From the NCBI GenBank assembly GCA_003609755.1, contig AP017991.1:1-64000 (forward strand): a DNA stretch of 64,000 nt, in the 5' to 3' direction. The notes under the pieces are model-generated. The model did not search any database, was not told the DNA's origin, and saw nothing but the letters and a program-made list of their open reading frames with translations. The DNA comes from Planktothrix agardhii NIES-204 (GTDB lineage: Bacteria; Cyanobacteriota; Cyanobacteriia; Cyanobacteriales; Microcoleaceae). Made by a program: the position numbers and the translations under genes. This document shows, piece after piece, positions 10,347-26,560 of this stretch. Position 1 is the stretch's first letter, and every line of letters begins with the position of its first letter.

Positions 10347-11692
10347 TACTCCGTGGGCGTAGGATCAAAACGCTCAATTTTAGCACCCAATTGTCGGAGT
10401 TTAGCTTCCAATTGTTCATAACCCCGATCCAGATGTTTTAATCCCTGAATCGTCGTTTCTCCTTCAGCAGCTAAGGCGGCAAGAACTAAAGCAGCCGAAG
10501 CGCGTAAATCCGTCGCTGTGACCGGAGCACCCGATAGCAAAGGAACACCTCGGACTAAAACCGTATTCCCCTTCACCTGAATATCAGCACCCATGCGACT
10601 GAGTTCAGGAACATGACCAAAACGATTTTCAAATACCGTTTCACTGATCAAACTATTGCCTTCACACAGCGTTAATAGCGCCATAAAGGGGGCTTGCATA
10701 TCAGTAGGGAAGCCTGGATAGGGTAGGGTTTTAATATCCGTCGCCTTTAGTTGTTCTCCGGGGATAATGCTCAAGTGGTTTAGCCCTTCCATGCGGATTT
10801 TCACCCCCATAGTTTTGAGTTTAGCCAGTACAGGACTCAAATGTTCTGGAATAATCGGCGATAGGTTGATTTCACAACCTGTGATCGCCCCAGCTATTAA
10901 AAAAGTTCCGGCTTCTATTCGGTCAGGAATAATCGAATAATCCGCAGAATGTAGACTCGGAACTCCAGAAATGATAATAGTTTTACTGCCAGCCCCATGA
11001 ATTCTGGCTCCCATCGCCCGGCAGAAATTCGCTAAATCGATAACTTCCGGTTCTTGAGCCGCATTTTCAATGATGGTTTCCCCATCCGCTAGGGTGGCCG
11101 CCATCATCAAAGTTTCCGTCGCCCCGACACTGGGATAATCCAGATAGATGCGAGCACCCTTGAGCCGACGATTCGCCCCAGCTACATGAGCATGAACAAT
11201 CCCATGTTCGATGTGTACTTCCGCGCCCATGGATTGAAGTCCACGAACATGAAGATCCACAGGTCTAGCACCAATGGCACATCCCCCAGGTAAGGGAACC
11301 CGGGCTATCCCTAAACGAGCCAATATTGGCCCAATGGCAAAGAAACTCGCCCGTAGTTGGCTCACCAGTTCATAGGGGGCTTGTGATTCTGATAACTCAC
11401 CCGCCTTAATGTCGATAATGTCGCCCTGGCGGTCAATCTTGACACCCAGAGTCATGAGAATCTCACTCATGCTATTGACATCGGCTAAAGAGGGAACATT
11501 CCGTAGCCGACAATCTTCGGAACAGAGTAATGCACCCGCCATTAGGACTAAAGCAGAATTCTTAGCTCCGCTAATCGGAACATGACCTTGTAGGGGTTGA
11601 CGTCCCCAAATTTTAAGACTGGACTGGTTAGCGTGGGACGCAGTTGAAACATTCGATGAACGTATAGCTAGTGTAATGGGTCTATCCTCCAA
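10346..11692 (-). CDS. murA: UDP-N-acetylglucosamine 1-carboxyvinyltransferase
   Basis: The protein is 448 aa. It catalyses the first committed step of peptidoglycan synthesis: transfer of enolpyruvate from PEP to UDP-GlcNAc, in the cytosol. The substrate-binding GAKNSAL is at 42-48. The PEP-adduct cysteine is C138, in the flexible loop [14 protein letters not shown], so it should be fosfomycin-sensitive. C-terminal motifs ([30 protein letters not shown]) are typical. Relative to E. coli MurA there is an N-terminal extension of about 25 residues, common in cyanobacteria. Single gene, followed by an STRR array. Confidence 0.97.
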
Positions 11693-11910
11693 AAATGGTT
11701 TGTACGTTTACGATACTTAGATTTTTTGTTCTGATTCTACCTAAAAGATTCTAAATGTCTAGGGGTTAGACAAATTTTATGTCCCTTATAAACCCGAAAT
11801 CAGGCCTTGGAAGGGTTTTATAGGAATATCATTCTTGGTATAGCAAAAGTCTTATCGATCTTTAAATCCAGTGTAAAAATCTAATTAAGACTTAGGAGAA
11901 ATCAGAATTT

Positions 11911-12996
11911 ATGGAAATTGGTATTCCCAAAGAAATCAAGGATCAGGAATTTAGAGTGGGCTTGAATCCTGATAGTGTCAGGGTTTGCACGGAACGAGGT
12001 CATCAAGTTTTTGTAGAAACAGGTGCAGGGGAGGGTTCGGGGTTTAGCAATCGCGATTATACACGAGCCGGAGCCACAATCGTTAATTCTGCGACCGATG
12101 CCTGGAGTCGGGAACTTGTGGTTAAAGTCAAAGAACCTTTACCCGCCGAATATGGCTTAATTCAAAAAAATCAACTGTTGTTTACCTATCTGCATCTGGC
12201 GGCTAATCGAGAACTCACAGAACAATTAATTACAAGTGGTGTCCAGGCGATCGCCTATGAAACCGTAGAACTTCCTGACGGTCGATTACCTTTATTAACG
12301 CCCATGAGTATCATCGCCGGACGTTTATCAATTCAGTTTGGCTCCCGTTATTTGGAACGACAACAGGGCGGGAGAGGGGTACTTTTAGCCGGAATTCCTG
12401 GGGTAAAAGCCGGAAAAGTTGTGATTTTAGGCGGGGGAATAGTCGGGACTGAAGCAGCAAGAATTGCGATCGGAATGGGGGCAAAAGTTCAAATTTTAGA
12501 TGTGAATTTGGATCGGTTAGCTTATTTAGAAACGGTGTTTGGTTCGAGTGTGGAATTACTCTATAGTCATCCGTCTCAAATTGAAGAAAGTGTTCCTGAA
12601 GCTGATTTATTAATTGGTGCGGTTTTAATCCTAGGAAAACGCGCTCCTAAGTTAGTTTCTCGTAATTTAGTCGCCCAAATGCGCCCCGGTTCTGTGATTG
12701 TCGATGTGGCGGTAGATCAAGGGGGATGTATTGAAACCCTCCGTCCGACCTCCCACACTAATCCTACCTATATTGAGGAAGGTATCGTTCATTATGGTGT
12801 TCCCAATATGCCTGGGGCTGTGCCTTGGACAGCAACCCAAGCCTTAAATAATAGTACATTACCTTATGTTATTCAGTTAGCTGATAAAGGACTCAAGGCT
12901 TTAGAATTAAATCCGGTTTTAGCCAAGGGATTAAATGTGGAAAATCATCATTTAGTTCATCCTGCTGTTAGGGAAGTTTTTCCTGATTTAGTTTAA
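11911..12996 (+). CDS. ald: Alanine dehydrogenase
   Basis: The protein is 361 aa. NAD-dependent oxidative deamination of L-alanine to pyruvate and ammonium, or the reverse, in the cytosol. Catalytic K74 (VKVKEPL) and H95 (TYLHLAA) match the two key residues of the family. The Rossmann NAD site is VVILGGGIVGTEAARIA (about 170-186), and D at about 267 lies in the DVAVDQGGC motif. The start has a good ribosome-binding site (AGGAGA) upstream. The gene is convergent with the Ap4A phosphorylase gene, with a hairpin between them. Confidence 0.96.
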   Translation: MEIGIPKEIKDQEFRVGLNPDSVRVCTERGHQVFVETGAGEGSGFSNRDYTRAGATIVNSATDAWSRELVVKVKEPLPAEYGLIQKNQLLFTYLHLAANRELTEQLITSGVQAIAYETVELPDGRLPLLTPMSIIAGRLSIQFGSRYLERQQGGRGVLLAGIPGVKAGKVVILGGGIVGTEAARIAIGMGAKVQILDVNLDRLAYLETVFGSSVELLYSHPSQIEESVPEADLLIGAVLILGKRAPKLVSRNLVAQMRPGSVIVDVAVDQGGCIETLRPTSHTNPTYIEEGIVHYGVPNMPGAVPWTATQALNNSTLPYVIQLADKGLKALELNPVLAKGLNVENHHLVHPAVREVFPDLV

Positions 12997-13006
12997 TTCC
13001 TGTTTT

Positions 13007-13025
13007 GGGCGAGGTTTCCTCGCCC
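13007..13025. terminator. Bidirectional hairpin terminator between convergent genes
   Basis: GGGCGAGG (13007-13014), TTT loop, CCTCGCCC (13018-13025): a perfect 8-bp stem placed exactly between the end of ald and the end of the Ap4A phosphorylase gene. A run of four T precedes it on the plus strand. Confidence 0.55.
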
Positions 13026-13940
13026 CTACAACGCTACTTGTTTTAAAACTGTTAAGGGATGATAGGATTTAAGCTGTTGCAGTTGTTCTGAATTTTTAAC
13101 TAATAACGTCCCCCCAAATCCTAAAGAATTAATCGAAATTCCCTCAAATTTTTCTTGAGATCGAGGAACAATCATCATCCAATTTCGAGTAGCTAATAAA
13201 TTATAAGCCCCTGATTGAAAGGGATTATCCCCGACGGATAAACCCAATGTGGCTAATAGCTCAAAATACAATTCTAAGGTAAAAATAGCTGCTTCTGATA
13301 GGTGATTAATCCAGTCAGGGTTAAAAGTCGCGATCGCATGAACAAAAGGAAATTCAGGAATGATCCCGATAGAATTATTAAACTGTACAGAAGCGATCGC
13401 AGGTTCAATCGGAAGATTGATTCCATCTGGGACTAAAGGAAACGGAACTAATTGTAAATGTTTATGACGCTGACTCGCCCCGGCTAATTTTCCCCCATTA
13501 TAAAAAACCAAACCATCAATTTCGGCTAAAACCAGCCACATTGCTGCAAAATCTGCTTGAGTCAGCCAGGTTTCCTGTTCTTCAAATTGTCGGGTAACTA
13601 TCAATAAATGATGATCAACAACATTAAATTTATTCAGTAAACATAAATGAGTTTCTGATAAATTGCCAACAAACAAATCCTGTTCATAAGGAAGAAATGG
13701 ATTAAATTCTTTACCGGATTTAGCTAGTTTTTTTTGCTGTTTCTTCTTAGCTTTCTGTTTTCGAGCTAAGTTAGACAGAATTCTCACCAAAAACCGAATA
13801 TTTCCCTCCTCTATAAAATCATATTCCGTTGGAATTGATTGTAAGGCGTCACAGTTGAGAGCAGATTCGGTTTGAGTGATTATCCGTTGCCATAATGTCC
13901 CCGATGGTAACATCAATTTTGCAGTTTTTGTACTGATCAT
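13026..13940 (-). CDS. Ap4A phosphorylase (ATP adenylyltransferase)
   Basis: The protein is 304 aa. The HIT-superfamily core is visible: LFVGNLSETHLCLLNKFNVV, DHHLLIVTRQFEEQETWLT, and the catalytic GASQRHKHLQLVPFPL, where the second His of HKH is the expected nucleophile. The C-terminal part (GAYNLLATRNWMMIVPRSQE) is typical of DUF4922/Ap4A phosphorylases. It probably splits diadenosine tetraphosphate with phosphate into ATP and ADP. A lysine-rich loop (RKQKAKKKQQKKLAKSGK) near residues 61-76 is a charged insertion seen in cyanobacterial members. Confidence 0.9.
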   Translation of the reverse strand: MISTKTAKLMLPSGTLWQRIITQTESALNCDALQSIPTEYDFIEEGNIRFLVRILSNLARKQKAKKKQQKKLAKSGKEFNPFLPYEQDLFVGNLSETHLCLLNKFNVVDHHLLIVTRQFEEQETWLTQADFAAMWLVLAEIDGLVFYNGGKLAGASQRHKHLQLVPFPLVPDGINLPIEPAIASVQFNNSIGIIPEFPFVHAIATFNPDWINHLSEAAIFTLELYFELLATLGLSVGDNPFQSGAYNLLATRNWMMIVPRSQEKFEGISINSLGFGGTLLVKNSEQLQQLKSYHPLTVLKQVAL

Positions 13941-14082
13941 TTCAGTTTAGGCTGTAGCCTAGATTACAATCTTCTTTTTTTATCCTACAGGAGTTAGGGA
14001 AACAAGGGAAGAATAGGGGAATAAATCACACTCGCTCCCACAGATTGAATCAATTCAAGGATGAGGACATTAACCTTCGCAT

Positions 14083-14502
14083 CTACGGCAAACTAGCTTT
14101 CCAAGACTTACAAATTGCTTCCGAACCTTCTTTGGCAATTTTTTTAATTACTAACGTGGCAATTAAAGTAGCAATAGCAGGAGTTAATCCTAATCCAGAC
14201 ACGAGAACAGGAGCCAATATTCCTGCCGCTTTAGTATAATTTTGGTTAATGACTTCATCTAATACTTTTTCCGTTTCTGGATCTGAACCCAAAGGATTAC
14301 ACATCAGATCATAAAGTCCTGAATTGAGTTGTTTCAGGAAATGTTTACCTGCTGCTAAGACTTCAGGATTTATGGCTGCTTTAGCGGTGGCATTAATATC
14401 AATTGAATCCAGTGTATCTCGAACTTGCAGACCCAACTGTTCTTCTAGGGATTCTTCATCCAGTTCTAATAACTGTGGGATTAATTCATTGTAATCTTGC
14501 AT
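14083..14502 (-). CDS. Small hydrophobic-tail protein, last gene of the caspase cluster
   Basis: The protein is 139 aa, family not recognised. The N-terminal half is acidic and helical (NELIPQLLELDEESLEEQLG). Residues about 92-124 (AAGILAPVLVSGLGLTPAIA, then TLIATLVIKKIAK) form one long or two short hydrophobic helices with Gly/Pro breaks, like membrane-inserting peptides. The last residues are basic (KEGSEAICKSWKASLP). It lies 136 bp downstream of the caspase-WD40 gene on the same strand. A ribosome-binding site (AGGAGGTTTCC) precedes the ATG. A pore-forming or holin-like effector is a guess; an immunity or adaptor protein is equally possible. Confidence 0.7.
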   Translation of the reverse strand: MQDYNELIPQLLELDEESLEEQLGLQVRDTLDSIDINATAKAAINPEVLAAGKHFLKQLNSGLYDLMCNPLGSDPETEKVLDEVINQNYTKAAGILAPVLVSGLGLTPAIATLIATLVIKKIAKEGSEAICKSWKASLP

Positions 14503-14638
14503 TGGAAACCTCCTGCTAAAGTTAGTATATTGTTTTTTATATCAACAGATTAAAAATAGTAAAACCACCTTTAATCTGTTGATATATTTTACCATAAGAC
14601 TAGCTTAAAGTCAAATCAATTAATTAAGATTTTAATTA

Positions 14639-17600
14639 TTATTTTGTCTCTAAGCAAATTTCTGGCTGGTTTTTATCCACAAAGTTGCTATTTTGTAGAT
14701 AAGGTTTTGCCCACGCACAACTTTTTTCTAGCAACTGATCCAAATTTAAGAAATCCAAATTCCAGAGAATTAATTTTTTATCCCAGCCAACAGAAGCCAA
14801 AGTTTTACCATCGGGACTGAAAGCCACTGCAAAAACCCGGTTTGTATGTTCTGATAAAGTAATGGGTTGGTTACTGTCTAAGTCCCAAAGTTTTACCGTA
14901 TTGTCTTGACCGGCAGAAGCTATTATTTGACGATTTTTACCCTCTTGATCATAGGAGTGAAATGCTAAACCATAAACAGCACCATTATGTCCTTTTAAAG
15001 TTTTCGTAGATTGATATTTGCCTTGAGAATTTCGTTGCCAAACTTGAATTATGCCATCTGAACCTGCCGAAGCCAGTATAGAACTGTCAGAACCAAAAAC
15101 AACTTGATTAACGTTCCCTGTGTGACCGCTAAGACTATCAAAAGGTTCCTGTTCAAACTGACCATTAATCTCTTTTTTCCAAAGTTTTACTGTCCCATCC
15201 TCATGTGCTAATGCTAACAGTTGATTATCGGGACTGAAGGTTACTTTTAAACCATAAGCTGATGAATTTTCAGCATTAGCAGTTGAAAGAGTAGTTGGAA
15301 TAACCTTATAAGAGCCATCATCTTGCTTTTTCCAAATTCTGACTTTTTGGTCCGAACTGGTTGATGCCATTTCTGAACCATCAGAATTAAATGCAATTCC
15401 ACGAATCTGATACCCTATATTCTTAGGTTGAGGAACTTTAGCTTGACTGAAATGACCTGTTTGATCGAGTTGCCACAGAATAATTTGACCATCTTCATCT
15501 GCGGATGCAATAGTAGAGTTGTCAGGGCTAAAAGCTAGAGTATAAAATTTCTTATTTTTTTCTGTAAATAGAGAAGAGTTTTTTTCATAAACTCCTTCAT
15601 TATTTCTTCGTAAAACTCTGATTGTTCTATCTGCACTCGCTGTAGCAACCCATAAACCATCATTACTGAAATCAACAGCAAACACAACATCTGTATGTTC
15701 TGAAAAAACTTGATTTTTTAAAAGATGTTCAGTTTTCCAAATTAAAAGATGTTCATTTTTCCAAAGTTGAATGGTATTGTCTGCACCTGCTGACGCAATT
15801 AGGGAACCATCGGCATTGAAACTAACAGAACGAACATCACCTCCATGACCTTCAAAAGTTGTGATTAAAGTCCCTTTTTTCACATCCCAGAGTTTAACCG
15901 TTCGATCTTGCCCTGCTGAAACAATTTTAGAACTATCAGGACTAAAACTAACCCCACGAACTCCATTACTATGTCCTGTCAACTCTTTAATCAAAGTACC
16001 GTCTGATTTCCATAGCTTAATTTTTCCATCTCCATGACCAGAAGCAATATGAGAACCATCAGGACTATAGCTAACTCCATAGGTCCAATTTTTTTCATTG
16101 TACAAATTTTTAACAAAAGTACCGTCTATATTCCAAAGTTTAATTCCATCTTTTCCTGCTGTTACAAGTTCAGAACTTTTCGGACTAAAGCTAACGGAAT
16201 AAACAGCATCTTTGTGCTTGTCCTGTTGGTTGCCTAACTCTCTCAACCAAGTTCCATCTTTATTCCATAGATTCACTTTTTTATCTTCTCCAGCCGAAGC
16301 AATTAAAGTACCATCAGAACTAAAAGCAACACCTAAAATATTGGATGTATGTTGCCGAGCAAATAGTAGGTCTGGCTGCTCTTTAAATTCACCTGTGCTT
16401 TTGTCTTTGTTCCAAAGTCTGATTCTTTGATCTCGGCTTCCTGAAATTAGGGTAGACCCATCAGGACTAAAACTCAAACTCCACACTGCCTTACCCCGTC
16501 CTTTAAGAGTTTGGTTTTGAGCTTGACTGCCATCTGGATGCCAAAATTTAATTGTCCCATCTTCACTGGCAGAGGCAATGATTTGATCATTTTTAGGATC
16601 AAAACTAATAGTAGTTATGGGAGCAGTGTGAGCTTGCCAGCGATTCAATTGTGTAATTTTATATCCTATTTTTTGTAACCCATTAATCGCCTGCCACTCT
16701 AATTCAGGACCGGGCATGAATACTGAATTTTGCTTCAATATAGTCATCAAATTTCTGCCATTTTTTACACTTTCTCCAGCTTGAATAGCATTCTCAAGAG
16801 ATTTTAACGGCTGTTTAGAACTTAAAAATTCGGAAGATTGAATTAAAGCATTATTTAATTGTTGTCTTTTGGATTGATTTTGATACCACAACGCTGAAGC
16901 AGCAACTCCTAAAATTAATAACCAAACCAAAAACGAAAAAATTGATTTTTGTTGTTTCCGCTTTTTGCTATCATTAACAAAAGTTGTTTCTTCCTGATTT
17001 AACCAATAGGGATCTAATTTCAGTTGGGCTTTAACTTGGGGAAGTCGAGGATCATCATCCCAAAGTAATCCTTGAGATTGTTTTTTATTGACACTATCTG
17101 CCCATTGAATGGCTACAGGTGTTAATTCCCTTTGCCGTAACAGATTAACGAGGTCTTGTTGTTTCCACTTCAAAAGTTTTTGCCATCCTCGTACTAAAGC
17201 ATCATGGGCTGGCTCTACATAGGGTTGTGCTTCACTATCAATACCATGAGTTAATAATCGTGCAGCCGAAAAGTGTTGAATAACGGTCTTCACTCTTGTA
17301 TTTTCAGGTTCTGGATATTCCAGTTCAGACATCGGAACTCGTCTCCTGGCCAGTTCCCCACCCACCGCCACCATCCGCAACATGACATTCCGAATAGTTT
17401 GAGAATATGCTATATCTTGCTTAACCAGTTCCTCATATTCTTGATCAGCCCGTTGAGTCAGCGATCGCGTTACCCCTCCCAATTCCTGATAATCTGCCTG
17501 AGTAATGGCGCGATCAATTGTTTCTCCCCGGTTCTTGGCATCTTCCTGTCGCTTCAGGTATTTTAGGTAAAGTTCACTCAAGGCAAAGGACAGTAGTGGC

Positions 17601-19183
17601 AATGCTCCGGGCATATTTGCCACTTCGTCAATTAACTGTTCGACTAACTCATGGGGGTCAAAGTACATCACCCGTGCTGATGCAGGTGCTTCGATCGCCT
17701 CTCGTAATTCTTCCCGTTTCATCGCCGGGACAATAAATCGGGCCGTTTGCCAGTCCTTCTCTAAAACTGTATTGCGAAACTGTGGCTCAAAATCAGAGCG
17801 CAGGGTTAGGACAAGATGGAGTTGATTCGGATATGTTGCGATCGCTCCTGCTAACGCTGCTAAAAACTGTTGTCGCTCAGAATCATTTTGGCAGAGTGTA
17901 ATTAATTCCTCAAACTGATCGACAACTAGCAGTAACTTTCCTTGAGGATGCTCGGTAAACCAATGGCCAAGACCTTCCCCTGGGGTGAGTAAACCTAAAG
18001 AGCTTGCTTCATGGTCTGGAGCGATCGCAGGTTGATTAACCGATGCTAGGGCATTATTCAAAGCCTTGAAGGGAGACTCACCGGGTCGGAAGGGCGGTAG
18101 AATAAACCAAGTATTACTATCCTTAACTTTTCGTAGTTTAGGGATAAGTCCGGCTTGTACCAAACTGGATTTACCGGAACCCGATGCACCCAGCATAACG
18201 GTTAGCTTACTAGAGGTAACAAACTCATAAAGTTTTTGGGTTAAAGCACTTTTGCCAAAAAACAAGTCGCTGTGTTCTTCTCCAAACGATAACAAACCAC
18301 GATAGGGATTTTTGGAAACATCCAATGGGGGAGCAGGTGGTAGATTCAGGGCGTGTCCGGGTGTCAGGAAAATGTATTCTCCTTTGTCATGTTTGTTCAT
18401 GGGATAGATGCCCGGAGTCTGACGGATGGCACGTACTTCCGTAGCAATTTCCACCTGTTCGCGCAAATATAAATAGAGTTCAGATGCTGTAATCACCCCA
18501 TCCCCGGCTGGTTTATTAGCTTCTGCGGGGGGAAAAGCATCAGCTTTGCCTTCGAGGGCTGCGATCAAAGCATTGGCAAAGGGAGAATGGACTCCTGTTT
18601 GTCCCCGATCATCTTTGAGATCAAAGGCATCCAGGGCCGTCTGATCGTAGGCTGCTGAGGTGATCACTTGCCATGCGGGATCTTGAATGAAGCGATCATA
18701 GCGTTCTTTGTGAAGTGTTAACAGTTCCAGGGGAATAGCTTGGCGCGTACTCGACCAACGAAAAGCACCCGCAAAACAACAGTCCAGAATTCCTAAAAAG
18801 TGACGACAGGGAAGCTGAAGCAGAGCTTTATTCACTTCTGACATCCGTAGGTAAGTGCTAATACTCCCAGACTTAGCATCTTGAGGAACAAGATACCCTT
18901 CAGGCCCATCCTCACCATTCATAGCAATGCCATGTCCTGCAAAATAAAAGAGAAAGCGATCGCCCTTCTGAATTTGGTTCGGCAGTTCTGTCTCTAATAC
19001 CTGCCGAATTTGGCTAAGGGTAGCTCCGTTATCTACCAGCAAAGTAACAGTGTAACCTTGCTTGCTTTCAAGGATATGGGCGATTTCTGTGGCATCGCTG
19101 ACGGCAGTTTTGAGGGAAGAAATGCCGTTATTGTAGTTATTAATGCCAATAACTAAGGCATAACTATGTTGAAAGTTTGACAT
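14639..19183 (-). CDS. Caspase - nSTAND1 ATPase - transmembrane - WD40 giant protein
   Basis: The protein is 1514 aa. Residues about 1-250 are a caspase (peptidase C14/orthocaspase) p20 domain with catalytic H84 (YFAGHGIA) and C136 (LDCCFAGAF). The nSTAND1 ATPase begins at about 292 (NPYRGLLSFGEEHSDLFFGK) with Walker A GASGSGKSS near 330-338 and Walker B LLLVVDQFEE near 415-425. One transmembrane helix is near 745-768 (FSFLVWLLILGVAASALWY). The C-terminal 650 residues contain 14 WD40 repeats by my count, enough for two seven-blade propellers. The design suggests a sensor (WD40), an ATP-driven switch and a protease output, held at a membrane. It starts 31 bp after the caspase gene upstream. 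Confidence 0.9.
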   Translation of the reverse strand: MSNFQHSYALVIGINNYNNGISSLKTAVSDATEIAHILESKQGYTVTLLVDNGATLSQIRQVLETELPNQIQKGDRFLFYFAGHGIAMNGEDGPEGYLVPQDAKSGSISTYLRMSEVNKALLQLPCRHFLGILDCCFAGAFRWSSTRQAIPLELLTLHKERYDRFIQDPAWQVITSAAYDQTALDAFDLKDDRGQTGVHSPFANALIAALEGKADAFPPAEANKPAGDGVITASELYLYLREQVEIATEVRAIRQTPGIYPMNKHDKGEYIFLTPGHALNLPPAPPLDVSKNPYRGLLSFGEEHSDLFFGKSALTQKLYEFVTSSKLTVMLGASGSGKSSLVQAGLIPKLRKVKDSNTWFILPPFRPGESPFKALNNALASVNQPAIAPDHEASSLGLLTPGEGLGHWFTEHPQGKLLLVVDQFEELITLCQNDSERQQFLAALAGAIATYPNQLHLVLTLRSDFEPQFRNTVLEKDWQTARFIVPAMKREELREAIEAPASARVMYFDPHELVEQLIDEVANMPGALPLLSFALSELYLKYLKRQEDAKNRGETIDRAITQADYQELGGVTRSLTQRADQEYEELVKQDIAYSQTIRNVMLRMVAVGGELARRRVPMSELEYPEPENTRVKTVIQHFSAARLLTHGIDSEAQPYVEPAHDALVRGWQKLLKWKQQDLVNLLRQRELTPVAIQWADSVNKKQSQGLLWDDDPRLPQVKAQLKLDPYWLNQEETTFVNDSKKRKQQKSIFSFLVWLLILGVAASALWYQNQSKRQQLNNALIQSSEFLSSKQPLKSLENAIQAGESVKNGRNLMTILKQNSVFMPGPELEWQAINGLQKIGYKITQLNRWQAHTAPITTISFDPKNDQIIASASEDGTIKFWHPDGSQAQNQTLKGRGKAVWSLSFSPDGSTLISGSRDQRIRLWNKDKSTGEFKEQPDLLFARQHTSNILGVAFSSDGTLIASAGEDKKVNLWNKDGTWLRELGNQQDKHKDAVYSVSFSPKSSELVTAGKDGIKLWNIDGTFVKNLYNEKNWTYGVSYSPDGSHIASGHGDGKIKLWKSDGTLIKELTGHSNGVRGVSFSPDSSKIVSAGQDRTVKLWDVKKGTLITTFEGHGGDVRSVSFNADGSLIASAGADNTIQLWKNEHLLIWKTEHLLKNQVFSEHTDVVFAVDFSNDGLWVATASADRTIRVLRRNNEGVYEKNSSLFTEKNKKFYTLAFSPDNSTIASADEDGQIILWQLDQTGHFSQAKVPQPKNIGYQIRGIAFNSDGSEMASTSSDQKVRIWKKQDDGSYKVIPTTLSTANAENSSAYGLKVTFSPDNQLLALAHEDGTVKLWKKEINGQFEQEPFDSLSGHTGNVNQVVFGSDSSILASAGSDGIIQVWQRNSQGKYQSTKTLKGHNGAVYGLAFHSYDQEGKNRQIIASAGQDNTVKLWDLDSNQPITLSEHTNRVFAVAFSPDGKTLASVGWDKKLILWNLDFLNLDQLLEKSCAWAKPYLQNSNFVDKNQPEICLETK

Positions 19184-19238
19184 AATTGGTAATTGTTAAC
19201 TCGTAATTCGTAATTCATAATTCGTAATTGTTAATTGT
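19183..19238. repeat. Heptanucleotide STRR array between the two caspase genes
   Basis: Eight in-phase TAATTNN units (TAATTGG, TAATTGT, TAACTCG, TAATTCG, TAATTCA, TAATTCG, TAATTGT, TAATTGT). The array touches the start codon of the WD40 caspase gene (19181-19183) and encodes the last residues (TINNYEL) and stop of the upstream caspase gene. Confidence 0.7.
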
Positions 19239-21314
19239 GATCTTGATCTCTTTCGTTGTCCACTCTTGACTCGGATCGAAAATGGGTACTGCCGCACGGG
19301 TGAGTTCTGGAATTTCAGCACCAAGAGCAGTCAGCAATTTTCCCAGGGGACTATCATCCCGTGAGAGTCCCGCTTTGGGCGCAATTTCTTCATCCAGGGG
19401 AGGTAACTCCAGCCAACGAAAATCGTTCGGTCTGAGAGTTGCAAAAACTTTAATGGTTTCTTTGGCTTGGTTGTATTTGGAAGTATTTGGTAACTGAAAG
19501 TTGAGAGGATGCAAAATTTCTTGATTGGAATTAAACGGGTAATAAATTTTTAGCTCGTTTTCTAATTGCAAACGAGAAACTTGCCAGGTGGGTTCAATAT
19601 CCAATACAGCAATATTTAAAACTTGAGATGAAATATTTTTGATTCGCAAGAATGTAGTTTCATCGGATTTCACAACTAAATGAGTCGGGTCGGGGAAGGG
19701 TTTTGGTTCCTTAACCATTCCGGGTCGCCAGTTGGGTTGGGTCAGTAATTCCACTTCTAATTTGCTCGTCAAATCAGAAAATTGATTGCTTAATTCTTGA
19801 ATAGCTTGATATTTTGCTAGGTGTACCAAACGTTGCACCACTTTTTGTGGAGTTTCAGCATCTCCAATTTTGAGGGCTGGGGTTAGGTTTTCAACTGGCG
19901 TACCGACGCAAATTTCATACTCACCTTGTCGGTTCACTGCCACCAAATAATCTTCTTTCTCTTGGGCATCAGCTAGTTTCAACCAGCCATTATCTGCGAG
20001 TGCTACCTCAACTGCTTTTAGTGCATCTTCTTCTTGATCTTTAATGCTTTGAGTTAGTTGATGGTCTTTTTCACCTACCGCTTTTTTGAATAGGCGTACT
20101 CCCCGTACTAAATTAACGGGTACTGACAGCATCACCGCCTGAGATCCCGGCTCAATTTTGCCAGAACGTAGGACTTCAACGACATTAGCCCAGGCATCGG
20201 AAGCTCCCACTCTGGCAATTTCAGCGATCGCTAACTGCTGGTTTTTTTGGGTAAAATCCGTTATGCCATAAGGATAAATCGCAAAGCGTGCACCTGCACT
20301 CAGACCGTTGACCATTCCTGCATCCAGTCGAACCTGTTTCGGTTCTGAGTTTTCCTCAACCACCTCTAATACATTCACGGCGTATTGTAACGAACTTCGC
20401 TCAACTCCAAACACAAAGCGATCGCTTTCTCCCGATAGCATGGGCATCTGGGAAGGGAACTTGCTTTGAATCTTGGCACTAACGCGATCGTGTAATGTCT
20501 TGTAAGTCAAGCCAGAAGGAGCGCTGGTTAAGGTATCGATCAGCCAGTAAGTGAGCGCTCCATGTCGCTCTTTACCACTCACCGCATACTCATAAGCGAA
20601 CTCGCTGGGACGACAAGCTGCTAATAACACATAATCTCTCCGTTGAGGAAACCAGCGTCCATCCGTTGTCCCTGTTGGCGTTCCATCCATCAGCATTCGC
20701 CAGTTTTGTATTAGTTGTTCACGGGTTCCGACAATACTTTCGACACTTCGGGATGCAATATCAATCTCTCCAGGGCTTCTAATGGCTATATCATCCCCTC
20801 GTATTGCGTCCCCGGAGTGACAACTATCCAGAATTACCGTCACCACTAACCCTTTATCAATCATGCGTTTGAGCAGGGTTGCTAATTCCACATCTCGCAG
20901 ATAACGACCTTCTTGATCCCCAATATCCATCGGGACAATACCTTCATCGGGTTGGTCAGTTCCCTTGAGTTCTGGATAGATGGTTTTCGCCCGTCCTCCA
21001 TGTCCAGAGTAATAAATACACACTTGTTCTCCGGGTTGGGCAAGTTCTGTAATCGTGTGAAACTTCCCGACAATATTTTCATAAGTAGGTAGCAGGTCTG
21101 GAGTAACACTCAAATCAGAAATATCAGGATTCGGAGAAATTAACTTAACAATTTGTTCCGATGGAATATTCAGGGTTTTTAAGAAATAATCTCCCACTAA
21201 GTTAATATCGCGTACACATCCCTTGAGATTCTTATACATTGGATTCGGGATATAACCATCAATTCCGATTAAAAGAGCATAAAATTTGTTTTTTTGTTCA
21301 GATAAATTAGACAT
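19215..21314 (-). CDS. Caspase family protein (orthocaspase, peptidase C14)
   Basis: The protein is 699 aa with ATG at 21314, preceded by GGAG; the longer frame to 21368 was rejected. The p20 domain spans about 10-330. Catalytic H105 (CIYYSGHGGRA) and C165 (VILDSCHSGDA) are both present, so it should be an active cysteine protease; the bacterial family mostly cleaves after Arg or Lys. Residues about 330-690 are a C-terminal region without enzyme motifs (LDAGMVNGLSAGARFAIYP; TTFLRIKNISSQVLNIAVLD; IKVFATLRPNDFRWLELPP) resembling the DUF4384-type beta domains attached to cyanobacterial caspases. It is the third gene of the minus-strand cluster with the lysozyme and M15 genes. Confidence 0.88.
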   Translation of the reverse strand: MSNLSEQKNKFYALLIGIDGYIPNPMYKNLKGCVRDINLVGDYFLKTLNIPSEQIVKLISPNPDISDLSVTPDLLPTYENIVGKFHTITELAQPGEQVCIYYSGHGGRAKTIYPELKGTDQPDEGIVPMDIGDQEGRYLRDVELATLLKRMIDKGLVVTVILDSCHSGDAIRGDDIAIRSPGEIDIASRSVESIVGTREQLIQNWRMLMDGTPTGTTDGRWFPQRRDYVLLAACRPSEFAYEYAVSGKERHGALTYWLIDTLTSAPSGLTYKTLHDRVSAKIQSKFPSQMPMLSGESDRFVFGVERSSLQYAVNVLEVVEENSEPKQVRLDAGMVNGLSAGARFAIYPYGITDFTQKNQQLAIAEIARVGASDAWANVVEVLRSGKIEPGSQAVMLSVPVNLVRGVRLFKKAVGEKDHQLTQSIKDQEEDALKAVEVALADNGWLKLADAQEKEDYLVAVNRQGEYEICVGTPVENLTPALKIGDAETPQKVVQRLVHLAKYQAIQELSNQFSDLTSKLEVELLTQPNWRPGMVKEPKPFPDPTHLVVKSDETTFLRIKNISSQVLNIAVLDIEPTWQVSRLQLENELKIYYPFNSNQEILHPLNFQLPNTSKYNQAKETIKVFATLRPNDFRWLELPPLDEEIAPKAGLSRDDSPLGKLLTALGAEIPELTRAAVPIFDPSQEWTTKEIKITINNYEL

Positions 21315-21466
21315 TTTTTCTCCGATTTTAAAATTTGGATACAAGAGTGAGCAGGCAGATTTTTCCAAGACTTATCAATCAAGAATTAAGACTCGGTTAA
21401 TCTGCCTAATTTACTAAATAGACTTGTAATATCAATCTATTTAAAAATCTTAGAAATAGACTGAGT

Positions 21467-22381
21467 TTAAGCTAAGTGTTTACGAGTTTCTGTGCTAACA
21501 ATTCCATCTGCTTTTAAATTCTTTTTCTGTTGAAACTCTTTAACGGCTTTGTCTGTCCCTGGCCCAAAAACTCCATCAGTTGACACGGTAATTTCTGCAT
21601 TTTTTAAGCAGGTTTGCAACCATTTCACATCCGATCCTTCCATCATCGGTCTGCACAACCGTAGGACTCTGGGTTGTTCATCCCAAGGTGCTTTAGAAAA
21701 CCCCATTGCGGTCGAACGGTTCAGCGCTGACTCGGTTTCACCACCAAGTCCATAAATTCCATCCTCTGTAATTCGTTCATTGGGATGGTTTTTATTCCAC
21801 AGTTTTTGAAAGGCTAAAATAGCCACGGAACGAATATCTTTAGTCCCGCCTCCTACATAATCAAAATGAGGAGGATCTCCGGCTAAAGGATACCAATTTT
21901 GAGCCATTAAATAGGGTTCCCAACCTCTGGGATCTTCAATATCAAGTGCTAATCCACTTTGATGATTACTCGACCCTGGTAAGGCGACAGGACTCTTATC
22001 CTTGTACCAATTATAGAGCAACATTTGTTGGGCAATGGTGCGATAGGAGGAGTTAATAACCATTGCAATTCCTCGGGCTGCGATCGCTCGTTTTATAGCC
22101 TCTTTTGCCGGAGGTTGAACTAAGGGAAATGCCGCATCACCTAAATCAACATTCAGATCATCAAAACTGACTAAAGCGTTAGGAAGAACGAGGTTAATTT
22201 GATGAATGAGTTGTTGAAAAAGGGCATTAACAATCGCCGTAGACTCACCGGGAACATCTCGGACTAAACCATTAAAACTGGCTTTAATGGCTGAACGAGC
22301 TTCCCGTTCATAAAATTCAAAACAAGCTTCTATTTCAGGGTTTTCTAAGAGATTTGGATGCTGATGTTCTGGATTGGACAT
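21467..22381 (-). CDS. M15-type D,D-peptidase with C-terminal peptidoglycan-binding domain
   Basis: The protein is 304 aa. The central domain (about 95-180) carries the VanY/M15B zinc-site pattern: INSSYRT, then H140 and D147 in SSNHQSGLALDIED, and H172 in PPHFDY. It should cleave D-Ala-containing peptide stems of peptidoglycan. Residues about 238-304 are a PG_binding_1 domain (VKWLQTCLKNAEITV, DGVFGPGTDKAVKEFQQKKN). No signal peptide is seen, so the protein should be cytosolic until released. It lies 60 bp downstream of the lysozyme gene, with which it shares the C-terminal domain, and upstream of two caspase genes. Residues 1-90 are not recognised. Confidence 0.85.
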   Translation of the reverse strand: MSNPEHQHPNLLENPEIEACFEFYEREARSAIKASFNGLVRDVPGESTAIVNALFQQLIHQINLVLPNALVSFDDLNVDLGDAAFPLVQPPAKEAIKRAIAARGIAMVINSSYRTIAQQMLLYNWYKDKSPVALPGSSNHQSGLALDIEDPRGWEPYLMAQNWYPLAGDPPHFDYVGGGTKDIRSVAILAFQKLWNKNHPNERITEDGIYGLGGETESALNRSTAMGFSKAPWDEQPRVLRLCRPMMEGSDVKWLQTCLKNAEITVSTDGVFGPGTDKAVKEFQQKKNLKADGIVSTETRKHLA

Positions 22382-22441
22382 AATAACTTTTCCTCGATTT
22401 CAAGGCGTTTTTTTAGAGTTCAACTTCGGATTTTATCTCGT

Positions 22442-23347
22442 TTATAAACCCAATTTTTTTAAGGTTTCAGCACCAGCAATACCATCTACTGTTAAATTAT
22501 TTTGCTGTTGAAACTGTTTAATTGCCTGTTGGGTTTGTCCTCCAAAAATGCCATCGGGTTGCAGATTAAATCCCGCGTTGACCAGGGCTTTTTGTAGTTG
22601 CTCAACGTCTTGACCTTGGATTAACGGTTGACCGGGTTCAGATAAGCGTAAAACTCGTTTAGGCTCCCAAGTTTTTGCCGATTCCCAAGATTCACTTAAA
22701 AATAAAGAACGTTCGGCTCTCCGACGACGAGATAAACCCGCTAATACTTGTCCTCCGGCTTTATCCCATCTCAAAAATTGATCCGCAGCTTCTTTATATT
22801 TTCCTTGGTTTAAAAGTCTTAACAAAGTTGACTCAAATAAAGCTCTGGCTCCGACGTTATAACAAAAAGAAACTAAAGCCGAAAATTGATTATCATTAAT
22901 ATCAACTTTCACCCCATCAAGAACAGAAATTTCATATTTTCCTAATTCTTTTTTGAGGCGTGCTTCTGCTTCTGGAATTGTCATCGTCATGCCTTCATAA
23001 ACCCCTTCTGTAAATCCCCAACCAATTGTCCAGATATTAACGGGGTCAAGATAAGATTGTACATAAGTACCATGAGAACCTTGTTTTAAATCATGCAATC
23101 CTTCAAAGGATTTAATCAGTTTAATTCCTTCTTCATTAATCTTTCTAGTAGAGGATCTGGGTTCAACAATACCTCGTCGAGATGCAATATCCTCATCTTG
23201 AATCACTTCAAAGGTTTCTGCTGAAGTGAATTGCAGGGTTTGAATCAGTCGTTGAATCAGTCCTTGAGTTTCCGTAACTTGTATAATTTGTTCTTCTTGA
23301 AACTCATAAATACTGCCATCTTTTGCGATTTTAAGCGTTCTGCTCAT
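22442..23347 (-). CDS. GH24 lysozyme with C-terminal peptidoglycan-binding domain
   Basis: The protein is 301 aa. A T4/P1-type lysozyme domain (about 70-220) has the Glu-Asp-Thr set E82 (IKSFEGLHD), D101 and T107 (SYLDPVNIWTIGWGFT), plus family motifs FSALVSFCYNVG and LSRRRRAERSLF. It should hydrolyse the glycan strand. Residues about 232-301 are a PG_binding_1 domain. There is no signal peptide. Residues 1-56 are an acidic/hydrophobic extension not found in phage lysozymes, joined by a linker rich in basic sites (R57, R58, R64, R68, K69). It is the first gene of the caspase-lysin cluster; no phage structural genes are nearby. Confidence 0.9.
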   Translation of the reverse strand: MSRTLKIAKDGSIYEFQEEQIIQVTETQGLIQRLIQTLQFTSAETFEVIQDEDIASRRGIVEPRSSTRKINEEGIKLIKSFEGLHDLKQGSHGTYVQSYLDPVNIWTIGWGFTEGVYEGMTMTIPEAEARLKKELGKYEISVLDGVKVDINDNQFSALVSFCYNVGARALFESTLLRLLNQGKYKEAADQFLRWDKAGGQVLAGLSRRRRAERSLFLSESWESAKTWEPKRVLRLSEPGQPLIQGQDVEQLQKALVNAGFNLQPDGIFGGQTQQAIKQFQQQNNLTVDGIAGAETLKKLGL

Positions 23348-23599
23348 TCCTAGACTCCTTAAAACGTTTCAGTTATAGTAAAAATTGATACTAAAAGTCG
23401 TCAATTTTTGCGGAAATGTAGAATCACCCTAACCTCGGCTTAATCAATAAAAAGAGTCAAAAATTTGATTAAAATTTTTTGATTCAGTCAGTAAGTTGCT
23501 GTTAAATATTGGTCTTTTGGTTTAGTTTAACAATTGCAATTTATAAATCCAGGGTAAAGTTACAAAACTTAAGAATTTATACTTATAGAGATTTATAGA

Positions 23600-23764
23600 G
23601 ATCCAGCGATTGAAATCGTGGCTACACAAACGAAGTCCGCCTGCGCGGACTATTAACCTCCTTTGCGGCGCGGGTTTGTTCTTCGATTAACCTCCTTTGA
23701 TCAAGGGTTTAAAACCCGCGCCGGCGGGTTTTGTTTGTGTAGCCACGGTTTCAACCGCTGGATC
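23600..23764. repeat. 165-bp MITE-like element with 32-bp imperfect inverted ends
   Basis: The left end 23600-23631 (GATCCAGCGATTGAAATCGT...) pairs with the right end 23733-23764 at 30 of 32 positions. Internal GTCCGC..GCGGAC and CCGCGCCGGCGGG palindromes are present. It lies in the gene-free stretch 23348-23805; the remainder (23348-23599) shows nothing I can name. Confidence 0.7.
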
Positions 23765-23805: not shown

Positions 23806-24441
23806 TCAAAACCCGATAGAATTTGATATTTTAGGAATGGGGGTAACTTTGGTTTTCGGTTTCCAGTCATACTCCATATATTGAGCCGTTTTTAAAGCCT
23901 TACTATCCCCTAAAAGTTTAGCCACAACATAAAGAGACATATCAATTCCTGCCGAAATTCCCCCAGCCGTAATAATTTTTCCATTATCAACAAATCGTTG
24001 ATTATCAACAACAGTGGTTTGGGGTGCCATCGCCTGTAATTGATCTAATGCTTGATGATGAGTTGTCGCTACTAAACCATCCAATAAACCGACTTTTGCT
24101 AACAGTAAAGCACCCGTACAAACTGATAAAATTAACTCGGCATGATATCCTTTAGATTGAATCCAAGCTAGAATTTGCAGTTGATTCAGAGCCTCTCTAG
24201 TCCCTATACCACCAGGAATAATAATAATATCGGGAGGAGGACTATCTAATAGAGTACAATCTGGATTAAAGCTCAAACCATAATGGCATTGAACTGAATT
24301 TAAGGTTTCTGCGACTAGAAACACATTAAAAGGTTGATCCTCATTAATTTCTGATGTAATCGAAAATACCTCAAAAGGGCCGATAAAATCTAATAGTTGC
24401 ACCCCATTAAAAATTAAAATAGCAACATTTGTTTGAGTCAT
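23806..24441 (-). CDS. DJ-1/PfpI family protein (isonitrile hydratase-like)
   Basis: The protein is 211 aa with a class I glutamine amidotransferase-like fold. The N-terminal signature (AILIFNGVQLLDFIGPFEVF) and the nucleophile elbow with C108 (ILSVCTGALLLAKVGLLDG) are clear, followed by ATTHHQALDQL and TAGGISAGIDMSLYVVAKL. This pattern is shared by stand-alone DJ-1/PfpI proteins, isonitrile hydratase InhA, and the N-terminal half of GlxA-type regulators; no HTH domain is attached here. Substrate cannot be told from sequence. Confidence 0.88.
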   Translation of the reverse strand: MTQTNVAILIFNGVQLLDFIGPFEVFSITSEINEDQPFNVFLVAETLNSVQCHYGLSFNPDCTLLDSPPPDIIIIPGGIGTREALNQLQILAWIQSKGYHAELILSVCTGALLLAKVGLLDGLVATTHHQALDQLQAMAPQTTVVDNQRFVDNGKIITAGGISAGIDMSLYVVAKLLGDSKALKTAQYMEYDWKPKTKVTPIPKISNSIGF

Positions 24442-24482
24442 TGGTCAGTAATCCTAAACGCAAAGGGATAAAAGATTAAAAT

Positions 24483-24626
24483 ATGTTAAAAAAGTGTCTT
24501 AAGCTCCAAAATATTATTCTGGTTATTCTGATTACTCTAGCAATTGTACTAGGTTGGAATAATTTAACTTTAGCACAAGGTTCTACCACTCAACTTGAAT
24601 ATCGCATGAGCCGCATGAGAAACTAA
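24483..24626 (+). CDS. Small secreted protein, 47 aa
   Basis: An ATG at 24483 opens a 47-codon frame: basic start (MLKKCLKLQN), hydrophobic core (IILVILITLAIVLGW) and LAQG, a plausible signal-peptidase site, leaving a mature tail of about 17 residues (STTQLEYRMSRMRN). The tail looks like the start of the LEYRxxRLE segments of longer secreted cyanobacterial coiled-coil proteins, so it may be a truncated relative. A structured RNA-like element follows 20 bp after the stop. Confidence 0.45.
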   Translation: MLKKCLKLQNIILVILITLAIVLGWNNLTLAQGSTTQLEYRMSRMRN

Positions 24627-24645
24627 ATAATTCATAAAAAAATAG

Positions 24646-24711
24646 GTGCTGCCATGATCTGAGGAGTTAAAGATGTTCTCCTCATCTTAGAAGATTGATC
24701 AAGAGCAGCAC
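24646..24711 (+). ncRNA. Predicted three-way-junction RNA structure
   Basis: Nested perfect pairings: GTGCTGC (24646-24652) with GCAGCAC (24705-24711), TGATC (24655-24659) with GATCA (24697-24701), then two internal hairpins, TGAGGAG/CTCCTCA (24660-24666/24678-24684) and TCTT/AAGA (24685-24694). Together they form a compact three-way junction. It may be the 3' structure of the small gene's mRNA or a separate small RNA. Its strand is inferred from the preceding gene; the complement folds as well. Confidence 0.4.
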
Positions 24712-24738
24712 AGTCTTTAAAAATTGATGATGTTTAAA

Positions 24739-24855
24739 TTACACAATGATACCGAAATAGTAAGCGGCAACTAAAAAGTTAATTCCTAACAGAAGAATTG
24801 CCCAAAATGCACGAAAGGTATAAGAGCCACTGGATGTTTGAGTTTTGGTAGCCAT
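24739..24855 (-). CDS. psaX: Photosystem I subunit PsaX
   Basis: The protein is 38 aa. The sequence MATKTQTSSGSYTFRAFWAI, then LLLGINFLVAAYYFGIIV, matches the PsaX pattern known from thermophilic and some filamentous cyanobacteria: a polar N-terminus and a single transmembrane helix ending in NFLVAAYYF. It is a peripheral small subunit of photosystem I in the thylakoid membrane that contacts a chlorophyll. The ATG at 24855 is preceded by AGGAAC. It lies 27 bp downstream of lipA on the same strand. Confidence 0.85.
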   Translation of the reverse strand: MATKTQTSSGSYTFRAFWAILLLGINFLVAAYYFGIIV

Positions 24856-24882
24856 ATTTAGTTCCTAAATACAATGATTCAA

Positions 24883-25842
24883 TTAAACCACAGAAGCAAC
24901 TGCATCGGGATCGGACTCTCCAGCATGATAGGAACTCCGCACTAATGGCCCAGAGCGGACGTGAGCAAACCCGATTTTGGTGGCGATCGCTCCCAAATGC
25001 TGAAATTCTTCCGGTGTCCAATATTTTCGCACGGGAAGATGTTTCAGGGACGGACGCATATATTGACCCAGGGTAATTCGGTCACATCCGGCTTCCCGTA
25101 AATCTTCCAGGGTTTGAATAATTTCGGCTTCGGTTTCTCCATGTCCTAACATTAAGCCGGATTTTGTGGGAATGCGGGGATCAAGTTGTTTCACAATTCT
25201 TAATACGTCCAGCGATCGCCCATACTTAGCCCCCCTTCTCACTGGTGCTTGCAGTCTTTGGACTGTTTCGACATTATGGTTATAACAGGCAGGTTCCGCT
25301 TCAACTACGGTGGCAATCCGTTGATATTGGAGTTCCTGGGGATTACCGCCCCCTTGCCCGCCCCAAAAATCCGCCGTCAGGACTTCAATCTGGGTTTCGG
25401 GGTTAAGCTCTCGAATTCTGTCCATTGTCGCCACGAACCACCGGGCCCCCCCATCGGCCAAATCATCCCTGGCCACGGAAGTTAAGACCACATAGCCTAA
25501 CCCTAAAATTTGTACAGCTTCGGCCACTTTTTGGGGTTCTTCGGGATCAAGGGGCATCGGTGCATGACCCTTATCCACTTGACAAAAGCCACAGGAGCGG
25601 GTACAAGTTGGCCCCATTAATAAAAAAGTTGCGGTTTTCTGGGCATAACATTCCCCCCGGTTGGGACAACGACCTTCCTCACAAATCGTATGAATTTGGC
25701 GCTGTTTGATAATCCGTTGTACAGAGGATAATTCACTGGCCTTACCGATGGGACGACGTAACCAGGCCGGGATAGGTTCAATGGCATTTTGATCCCGATC
25801 ACGATAAGATTGTTCTAGTGCTAAATCAGAAGGGGCGGACAT
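24883..25842 (-). CDS. lipA: Lipoyl synthase
   Basis: The protein is 319 aa with ATG at 25842; a TTG two codons earlier was not preferred. It is a radical-SAM enzyme that inserts two sulfurs into octanoyl groups on lipoyl domains. Both iron-sulfur sites are intact: the auxiliary cluster cysteines C54, C59, C65 ([12 protein letters not shown]) and the radical-SAM CxxxCxxC at C80, C84, C87 (CTRSCGFC). The C-terminal RSSYHAGE contains the conserved Ser that ligates the auxiliary cluster. Many cyanobacteria have two lipA paralogues; only one is seen here. Confidence 0.96.
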
Positions 25843-25983
25843 ATTCAAGTTCCGTTGTTATTTTGGCTTCTTCTCAGATTAATCTAGTTATGTATTCTAA
25901 AGATGCAGGTCTTTTTAATCATTGGATCACTTTAACCCAATATAATAATAGTTAACGCATCATTATCGTTATGGGAGTTAGTT

Positions 25984-26553
25984 GTGGCAGGTCGGAAAAT
26001 ACTGGTTATTGATGATAGTAAAGTAATTAGAGTTCGAGTCAGAGAAATGTTACCCCCTGGTAACTTTGAGGTATTAGAAGCCAAAGATGGCAAAGAAGGA
26101 CTCGAATTCGTGCAAAAAGAACATCCCAATTTAATTATGCTGGATTTCCTCCTGCCTAAGTTAAGTGGCTGGGATGTGTTTCAGCGAATTCAAGCGGATG
26201 AAACCTTGCGGCGCATTCCCCTTGTCCTGATGTCGGGACGGAAAGAAGAAGTCACCGAAAAAATTTCTGAACCCTTTCAATATTTTGAATTTATTGAAAA
26301 GCCCTTTGAGAAGAATCAACTAATTTCTGCAATTAAATTGGCCTTCCAAAAAGCCAATCTCCCCCGGCCACCCCTATCCACCCCTGGAACTCCTGCACCG
26401 ACTTCTGCACCTGCTCCTCAAGTTTCTCATGCTGGAGACGCGACGGATATTGCAGCAATTAAGGCTCAAATGGATACAATGCAGGCGGAACTGGATGCCT
26501 TGAAAAAACAAGTGTTGCAACTGAAAAGATTCATTCAGGGGAAATTAAAGTAG
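25984..26553 (+). CDS. Response regulator receiver protein with C-terminal coiled coil
   Basis: The protein is 189 aa with a GTG start. A CheY-like receiver domain (1-118) has the acidic pair D10-D11, phospho-acceptor D54 (IMLDFLLPK), and the conserved Thr/Ser and Lys in LMSGRKEE and FIEKPFE. A Pro/Thr/Ala-rich linker (about 122-148) leads to a coiled coil (IAAIKAQMDTMQAELDALKK) at the end. There is no DNA-binding or enzyme output, so it probably signals through protein contacts. A TATAAT-like box lies about 45 bp upstream. The cognate kinase is not in the window. Confidence 0.9.
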   Translation: MAGRKILVIDDSKVIRVRVREMLPPGNFEVLEAKDGKEGLEFVQKEHPNLIMLDFLLPKLSGWDVFQRIQADETLRRIPLVLMSGRKEEVTEKISEPFQYFEFIEKPFEKNQLISAIKLAFQKANLPRPPLSTPGTPAPTSAPAPQVSHAGDATDIAAIKAQMDTMQAELDALKKQVLQLKRFIQGKLK

Positions 26554-26560
26554 AAATATT

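Follow-up and report, generated by a model that had tools for sequence, protein, structure and literature searches.

An accessory gene cluster joining an orthocaspase to peptidoglycan-degrading enzymes in Planktothrix agardhii NIES-204, a candidate envelope-lysis module

Cyanobacterial orthocaspases have for many years been associated with cell death and the collapse of blooms, and few of their natural substrates are, to our knowledge, known. We deal here with a cluster of five genes lying at positions 14,083 to 23,347 of a 64,000-nucleotide stretch (the window) of the 5.08 Mb genome of the cyanobacterium Planktothrix agardhii NIES-204 (contig AP017991.1), in which two peptidoglycan-degrading enzymes, of the GH24 and M15 families, stand beside an orthocaspase (CASP), a STAND protein and a small hydrophobic protein (SMALL). 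We rather favour the reading that this is an accessory, orthocaspase-governed envelope-lysis module, in which CASP, triggered by the STAND protein, would cut stored envelope enzymes and SMALL, and the cell that carries them would lyse. The cluster supplies candidate orthocaspase substrates together with the exact residues concerned, so that a link between caspase activity and lysis becomes directly testable. If the reading is true, it describes a caspase-type immunity that uses wall-lytic enzymes and not nucleases or gasdermins, that is, a built-in, protease-triggered self-bursting of the infected or damaged cell, carried on a removable cluster.

Among the described systems, canu appears, by analogy, the closest in logic, with a caspase beside an enzyme that is inactive until the caspase acts, in variable loci with partner genes (PMC12799240). 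The canu effector is a nuclease, whereas in clusters of the present kind the candidate effectors are wall hydrolases, lipases and SMALL; Pfam gave no nuclease for the cluster, CASP is metacaspase-like by sequence, and where canu has an effector activated by caspase cleavage the cluster offers only conserved basic-small dipeptides as putative cut sites. In the bacterial gasdermin systems (PMC9079055) a caspase-fold protease is thought to release a membrane-active protein, ending in lysis, but SMALL is predicted to be all-helical, in a model of middling confidence, and in the cluster wall enzymes are added.

Among the candidate effectors that Kaur et al. (2020; PMC7159879) give for trypsin/NucA systems, some of which have STAND proteins, are EAD1-linked lysozyme and papain-like peptidoglycan peptidase domains. 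Their System 3 resembles the cluster in being a protease system, sometimes with STAND, that has wall-degrading candidate effectors, but it is built on trypsin and NucA, is found mostly in alphaproteobacteria and reaches its effectors via EAD1, whereas the cluster uses an orthocaspase; no EAD domain is among the Pfam matches of the five proteins (for the STAND protein, the best 25 of 56 families), nor is a NucA endonuclease or a trypsin-like peptidase. Their System 4, EACC1 plus caspase, shares with the cluster a small membrane-type partner, a caspase and variable effectors, but has its variable domains on the caspase polypeptide itself. CASP scored 22.5 bits against the NCBIfam EACC1-caspase model NF047832, the cut-off of which is 140. 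In the type III CRISPR SAVED-CHAT/caspase cascades a CHAT protease stands upstream of a caspase cutting several substrates, an arrangement like the one proposed here; the substrates differ, and no CRISPR gene was found among the cluster and flanking proteins scanned. In a phage lysis cassette, finally, an endolysin and a holin lie among phage genes, whereas the nine genes scanned at the flanks of the cluster are cellular and SMALL has no PHROG match and, in a pattern scan, no viral relative.

No linked caspase-wall-hydrolase cluster was found in the literature, the accessible portions of PMC8283722, PMC6426788, PMC9415839, PMC7965980, PMC3688857, PMC7159879 and PMC12799240 included and subscription papers lying mostly outside this scope. 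In the accessible main text of the orthocaspase surveys PMC8283722 and PMC6426788 the word peptidoglycan does not occur, nor does lysozyme in that of the former, and PMC3688857, which names a metacaspase and an amidase gene of one cyanobacterium as candidates for a role in death, does not present the two as linked. A preliminary description of the locus had called such a combination undescribed, which, within this literature, stands for the linked cluster and needs qualifying for its effectors, similar ones being listed in trypsin/NucA systems (PMC7159879). Because canu is close in logic only, the effectors of Kaur et al. belong to another protease system, and the surveys do not speak of peptidoglycan, the cluster is filed here apart, as a variant of the caspase-driven conflict systems outside the canu, gasdermin and EACC1 systems. 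What appears new, on the strength of sequence comparison, is a basic-small dipeptide at the borders of unrelated partners combined with an [IVA]-R-[GAS] motif after the catalytic Cys of the caspase.

Composition and conservation of the cluster

As previously described, the five genes lie on the minus strand and, according to open reading frames and Pfam, follow one another in the transcription order GH24-PG_binding_1, M15/VanY-PG_binding_1, CASP, C14-nSTAND1-transmembrane-WD40 (STAND) and SMALL, with intergenic gaps of 31-152 bp. Both wall enzymes carry the peptidoglycan-binding domain claimed for them, and neither begins with a hydrophobic stretch (of the 19-residue segments that start within residues 1-22, the highest hydropathy is 0.29 for GH24 and -0.29 for M15), in keeping with the reported absence of signal peptides. 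Residues E82, D101 and T107 of GH24, which we take to be its catalytic triad, are invariant across 17 aligned relatives, as are, across nine relatives of M15, H140, D147 and H172, presumably the zinc ligands. In the AlphaFold2 model of the lysozyme (mean predicted local distance difference test, pLDDT, 85.8) a folded N-terminal domain of about 50 residues, GH24N, is linked to the catalytic domain. The two caspases are both intact as judged by their His and Cys motifs, YYSGHGG and DSCHSG (Cys165) in CASP, FAGHG and LDCCFAG (Cys136) in the caspase-like domain of STAND. CASP, of 699 aa from the ATG at 21314 (717 aa from an upstream TTG), belongs with the C14 orthocaspases/metacaspases by its Pfam match (5e-18) and these motifs, and its closest solved chains, by sequence, are metacaspases. 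A single strongly hydrophobic segment, residues 747-765, is present in STAND. PADLOC gave single-protein matches only (caspase model, 1.8e-43; SMALL, see below). Promoter and terminator counts, set against shuffled sequence as a guide to operon status, match the shuffles (21 vs 21.5 and 8 vs 8.9) and are uninformative on an operon.

Among named contigs, those of two metagenome-assembled genomes of an Oscillatoriales cyanobacterium (L008 and L009) come closest in the GH24 gene, at 90-91% identity. Their STAND genes (L008:14346-16931, L009:14190-19046) are strongly divergent, that of L008 with no WD40 part matched and both with about 200 extra residues after the caspase domain; since near relatives differ so strongly here, rapid change of the sensor is suggested.

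Co-conservation of the lysins with caspase and STAND genes had been proposed as a test, and it was borne out. The full-family GH24 profile, searched in 388 genomes of the order, gave 18 places above 400 bits and three partial ones of 259-320 bits, with nothing else above 200. Loci with a GH24N domain of at least 45 aa number 19, and in 18 of them a wall peptidase is adjacent, namely M15 or, in L031, a C39-like enzyme, the exception being L119. CASP lies on the fetched stretch in 15 of the 19, as compared with 21 control GH24 loci without GH24N, which were chosen by us from lower in the profile list and of which none has CASP or SMALL. The GH24N loci lacking CASP are L112, which ends just after M15, L115 and L116, with CHAT-STAND and SMALL, and L119, with neither. 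GH24 without GH24N is also found linked to caspases, in G019, G028, G031 and probably G013 (cut contigs), where it has a 183-aa form beside a C39-like gene, and in G640 (L213, L230). Gene order is largely fixed across families f1, f4, f22 and f58.

Seen from the caspase, profile matches to CASP occur in 62 of the 388 genomes. The survey comprised all 60 genes above 700 bits (L117 is counted twice, for its two CASP genes); outside it remain 21 rows below 530 bits, several of them long caspase proteins; two of the genomes in these rows, G003 (L094) and G557 (L196), were seen otherwise. An envelope enzyme, i.e. GH24, M15, C39, LCAT lipase or an M74-PGB-GH19 protein added by hand after a Pfam scan, stands within 8 kb of CASP at 33 of the 60 loci; for the 43 at which over 3.5 kb of upstream sequence was available, the figure is 28. 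A C14, CHAT or nSTAND gene is beside CASP at 51 and SMALL is present at 14. Caspase-free control loci (GH24 or M15 loci, 0.949 Mb in total) contained five extra envelope genes. On these neighbourhood counts, from the GH24 side and from the CASP side, the grouping of wall enzymes with CASP is not due to chance. The envelope enzymes interchange beside the same caspase (C39-like, M74-GH19, LCAT lipase); G056 has a lipase near the cluster, in the absence of SMALL, and in G003 a C39-like gene and a lipase lie beside a CASP that is broken by an insert.

Another possible envelope-attack set is seen in L225-L229, where an LCAT lipase, a 585-aa protein and CASP follow in fixed order with an nSTAND gene near; the 585-aa protein has a weak Tlde1 match (5.7e-4, L226 only).

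The cluster is also variable within the species. The same-species genome G295 has about 8 bp in place of window positions 14007-23598, and it is at these two positions, too, that the alignment to G004 is interrupted. The distance between the flanking genes for Ap4A phosphorylase and DJ-1/PfpI is below 270 bp in six of the nine other genus genomes and about 6.5 kb, with other genes, in G001 and G002, and only G006 has the cassette between them; G005 has it on a different contig. The cassette is thus missing at this site in eight of the ten genus genomes examined, one of the same species included. Since nothing lies between the flanks in most genus genomes, and different genes do in G001 and G002, the cluster is an accessory insertion, its site being one that takes other cargo too.

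The cargo at these flanks in G001 and G002 lies at L153:2564-8645 and L154:2553-8631, with a CHASE2/CHAT protein in L153 (by Pfam, of G001's cargo only). Directly at the cassette edge, at 23599-23764 of the window, is an inverted-repeat element resembling a miniature inverted-repeat transposable element, which G295 and G004 have at their empty sites as well.

Candidate cleavage sites

Orthocaspases cleave after basic residues (PMC6426788; also, from simulation, PMC8283722). In the alignments a basic-small dipeptide, [RK]-[AG], recurs at domain borders of unrelated partner proteins. In SMALL, where the acidic N part gives way to the hydrophobic C part, all 16 aligned sequences have R or K in one column and A or G in the next, with neighbours that vary; the forms of L089 and L090, outside this alignment, have R-S at the site followed by an Arg-rich insert. 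Of 17 GH24N proteins, 16 retain Arg64 and all have a second basic residue at position 68; the AlphaFold2 model places Arg64 between the folded N-terminal and catalytic domains, where its confidence is lower (block means 60 and 78). For M15, [RK][AG] was sought shortly before the enzyme domain in 64 proteins and found in 17 of the 20 with a caspase within 8 kb (18 of 21 before the remnant L186, a spurious match, was dropped), as compared with four of 40 unlinked ones, a difference whose Fisher p of 1.3e-8 overstates independence, the sequences being related; three GH24N-linked M15 with no caspase on the contig, set aside from the comparison, all have it. LCAT lipases from caspase loci show [RK]-[AG] in one aligned column in 13 of 13 (a fourteenth, cut by the contig end, was left out), and of ten full-length C39-like proteins of these loci, not all of which are caspase-linked on their contig, nine have R-[GS] before the enzyme domain. 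A CASP-adjacent M74-GH19 protein (L208), met after the idea had been formed, has R37-G38 just before its enzyme domain (Pfam start 42).

CASP itself has, in the loop after the catalytic Cys, an Arg in 60 of 60 sequences followed by G, A or S in 57 ([IVA]-R-[GAS]), and a 61st, of L111 (DCCNSG, outside the parsed 60), has IRGG at the same place. That R exchanges with K, and A with G, at a single border in folds that are unrelated would fit the imprint of a protease specificity better than structure.

SMALL has one C-terminal hydrophobic stretch (hydropathy 1.96), as the preliminary description had it, within a predicted hydrophobic and basic hairpin. It is without a match in Pfam, in PHROG or, by profile search, in PDB, and a pattern scan gave no viral relative. 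Its predicted structure, with only two of five models above pLDDT 70 and hence of middling confidence, is all-helical, which the gasdermin fold is not. SMALL was found in six of 386 genomes of the phylum, with at most nine candidates scored per genome and a possible undercount, so that its distribution looks narrow. It is fused to CASP in G019 (L087, 930 aa, with an Arg-rich repeat linker) and to M15 in G557 (L196, 373 aa).

Several minor observations concern this protein. The SMALL-M15 fusion (L196:9081-10202) lies beside a 1219-aa caspase and a STAND protein and has two R-G sites. The Arg-rich insert of the forms at L089:10209-10910 and L090:176-877, about 70 residues long, follows directly after the conserved basic site. 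The C half of the window protein (14083-14502) matches the PADLOC candidate PDC-M35B (3.1e-6), a family undescribed there.

Proposed mechanism and alternative explanations

In the envelope-lysis reading, the STAND/WD40 protein would sense a signal and activate its own caspase-like domain and the separate orthocaspase. CASP, probably matured by a cut behind the Arg conserved in its [IVA]-R-[GAS] loop, would then cut the partners at similar basic-small sites, freeing the lysozyme from GH24N and the M15 peptidase from its N-terminal extension, and SMALL would be split, its hydrophobic basic part entering the membrane. The wall enzymes would reach the peptidoglycan and the cell would lyse while the programme of the phage, or of another stress, is still incomplete; where cells form a filament, an infected cell that lyses early may spare the neighbours. 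A wider claim, that cyanobacteria have a whole class of immune-like systems in which one orthocaspase family commands interchangeable envelope-dissolving proenzymes and SMALL through one basic-small cut site, is put forward tentatively. Equally tentative is the arsenal it would imply, of lysozyme, M15, C39-like and M74 peptidases and an LCAT-type lipase, with lytic death by dissolution of wall and membrane. The conditional lysis system of the preliminary description stands in so far as the cluster is host-encoded and co-conserved; cleavage, pores, a single transcript and the trigger are its putative parts.

A number of findings weigh against this reading. The [RK][AG] site is present in four unlinked M15 (L161, L168, L184 and L193, that of L168 being beside an LCAT lipase at a contig end) and missing from three of the 20 linked ones, and the relatedness of the sequences lowers the worth of the p value. 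The lipase and C39 counts (13 of 13, nine of ten) have no unlinked comparison set, the C39 near CASP in L101 has no site, and the 183-aa GH24 of the G019/G028/G031/G013 type has neither the N-domain nor such a site (seen for L087). In the predicted structure of SMALL the site closes a helix (block pLDDT 85) and does not lie in a disordered loop, and the Arg of the CASP loop may be structural. In two of the 19 GH24N loci (L121, L122) the GH24 and M15 frames end early. At 27 of the 60 CASP loci (12 of them with less than 3.5 kb upstream) no envelope enzyme was recognised within 8 kb, the second CASP locus of the window genome (L086) being among them. The weakest link would be how the enzymes cross the membrane, because SMALL is not near the cluster in L008, L032, L033, L111, L113 and L114. 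It was also not found anywhere in the genomes G006 and G056, so that it cannot be a universal holin. Since it moreover lies on the opposite strand from the other cluster genes in L031, L034, L115, L116, L118, L120 and L121, a fixed holin role, as previously proposed, is weakly supported. With one modest hydrophobic stretch besides, SMALL was set aside as a classical holin and kept as a candidate.

The CASP loci without a recognised envelope enzyme, and the many caspase genes reported in some cyanobacterial genomes (PMC8283722), would be expected of a loose defence island, in which wall enzymes and caspases are co-inherited and function separately, the shared dipeptides being structural. We hold this to be improbable in view of the largely fixed gene order over the four families, the fusions of SMALL with CASP and with M15, the substitution of other envelope enzymes beside the same caspase, and the interchange of R/K and A/G at one border in unrelated folds.

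The abundance of caspases (PMC8283722) suits as well a developmental lysis, by which sacrificial cells (necridia) break trichomes, rather than defence. The order to which the host belongs is filamentous. Accessory behaviour speaks against development, the cassette being missing at the site in eight of ten genus genomes, one of the same species, with other genes (CHASE2/CHAT) there in two genus genomes, and we give this explanation little credence.

The wall enzymes might instead serve, once exported, as weapons or for scavenging, leaving the cell by lysis or through an unknown secretion route, with the caspase regulating release or processing. They do have peptidoglycan-binding domains, and some wall enzymes with no caspase beside them are likewise without room for a signal peptide, 14 of the 40 unlinked M15 starting at most about 17 residues from the enzyme domain; against export, Pfam shows no secretion gene among the five genes and their two neighbours, and the lipases that replace wall enzymes point to the cell's own envelope, which makes it as unlikely an account as the developmental one.

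A domesticated or decayed phage lysis cassette lying beside caspases by coincidence is very improbable and was ruled out as the leading explanation by the viral comparisons of GH24N, SMALL and CASP and by the cellular flanks: the catalytic part of GH24 does resemble phage endolysins (PHROG 7, 1.3e-58; 2612 of 50,697 phage records), but among the best 80 viral contigs listed no match extends into its residues 1-41, SMALL has no viral relative in the pattern scan, the one phage match to CASP is weak (41% covered, 24% identity), and the caspase linkage recurs in many genera.

Coordinates, flanks and a second locus

The features discussed are collected in Table 1.

Table 1. Window coordinates of the cluster genes, candidate cleavage positions (P1, residue before the cut) and the variable segment
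Feature	Coordinates	Strand	Remarks
GH24 lysozyme: N-terminal domain residues 1-50 (GH24N), Arg-containing linker 51-71, catalytic domain, PG_binding_1	22442..23347	-	301 aa; Phage_lysozyme 2.1e-41
M15/VanY peptidase with PG_binding_1	21467..22381	-	304 aa; VanY 9.4e-9
CASP, orthocaspase, His-Cys dyad intact, C-terminal region without Pfam domain	19215..21314	-	Peptidase_C14 5e-18
STAND: C14 caspase-like domain, nSTAND1 NTPase, transmembrane segment, WD40; presumed sensor/switch	14639..19183	-	1514 aa, Pfam
Predicted transmembrane segment of STAND, residues 747-765	16889..16945	-	hydropathy only
SMALL: acidic N part, K41-A42, hydrophobic basic C-terminal hairpin; candidate membrane-active	14083..14502	-	139 aa
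GH24 linker Arg64 codon, candidate P1	23156..23158	-	Arg in 16/17 aligned
M15 Lys33 codon, candidate P1	22283..22285	-	[RK][AG] before enzyme domain, 17/20 caspase-linked M15
SMALL Lys41 codon, candidate P1	14380..14382	-	R/K 16/16, then A/G 16/16
CASP Arg179 codon, candidate autocleavage site after catalytic Cys	20778..20780	-	60/60 aligned
Segment missing from same-species genome G295	14007..23598		~8 bp there instead

The nine neighbouring genes that were scanned, at 9427-13940 and 23806-28552, belong by Pfam to ordinary cellular families, among them EPSP synthase-like, alanine dehydrogenase, Ap4A phosphorylase, DJ-1/PfpI and radical SAM proteins, with no phage gene among the nine, which agrees with the earlier view of a host-encoded locus away from any phage.

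In the same genome, at about 1.35 Mb, a second locus (L086:7382-14519), in which no wall hydrolase was recognised, holds a SMALL gene (85% identical), another CASP and a CHAT-nSTAND-WD40 gene, beside two FtsH genes on the other strand.

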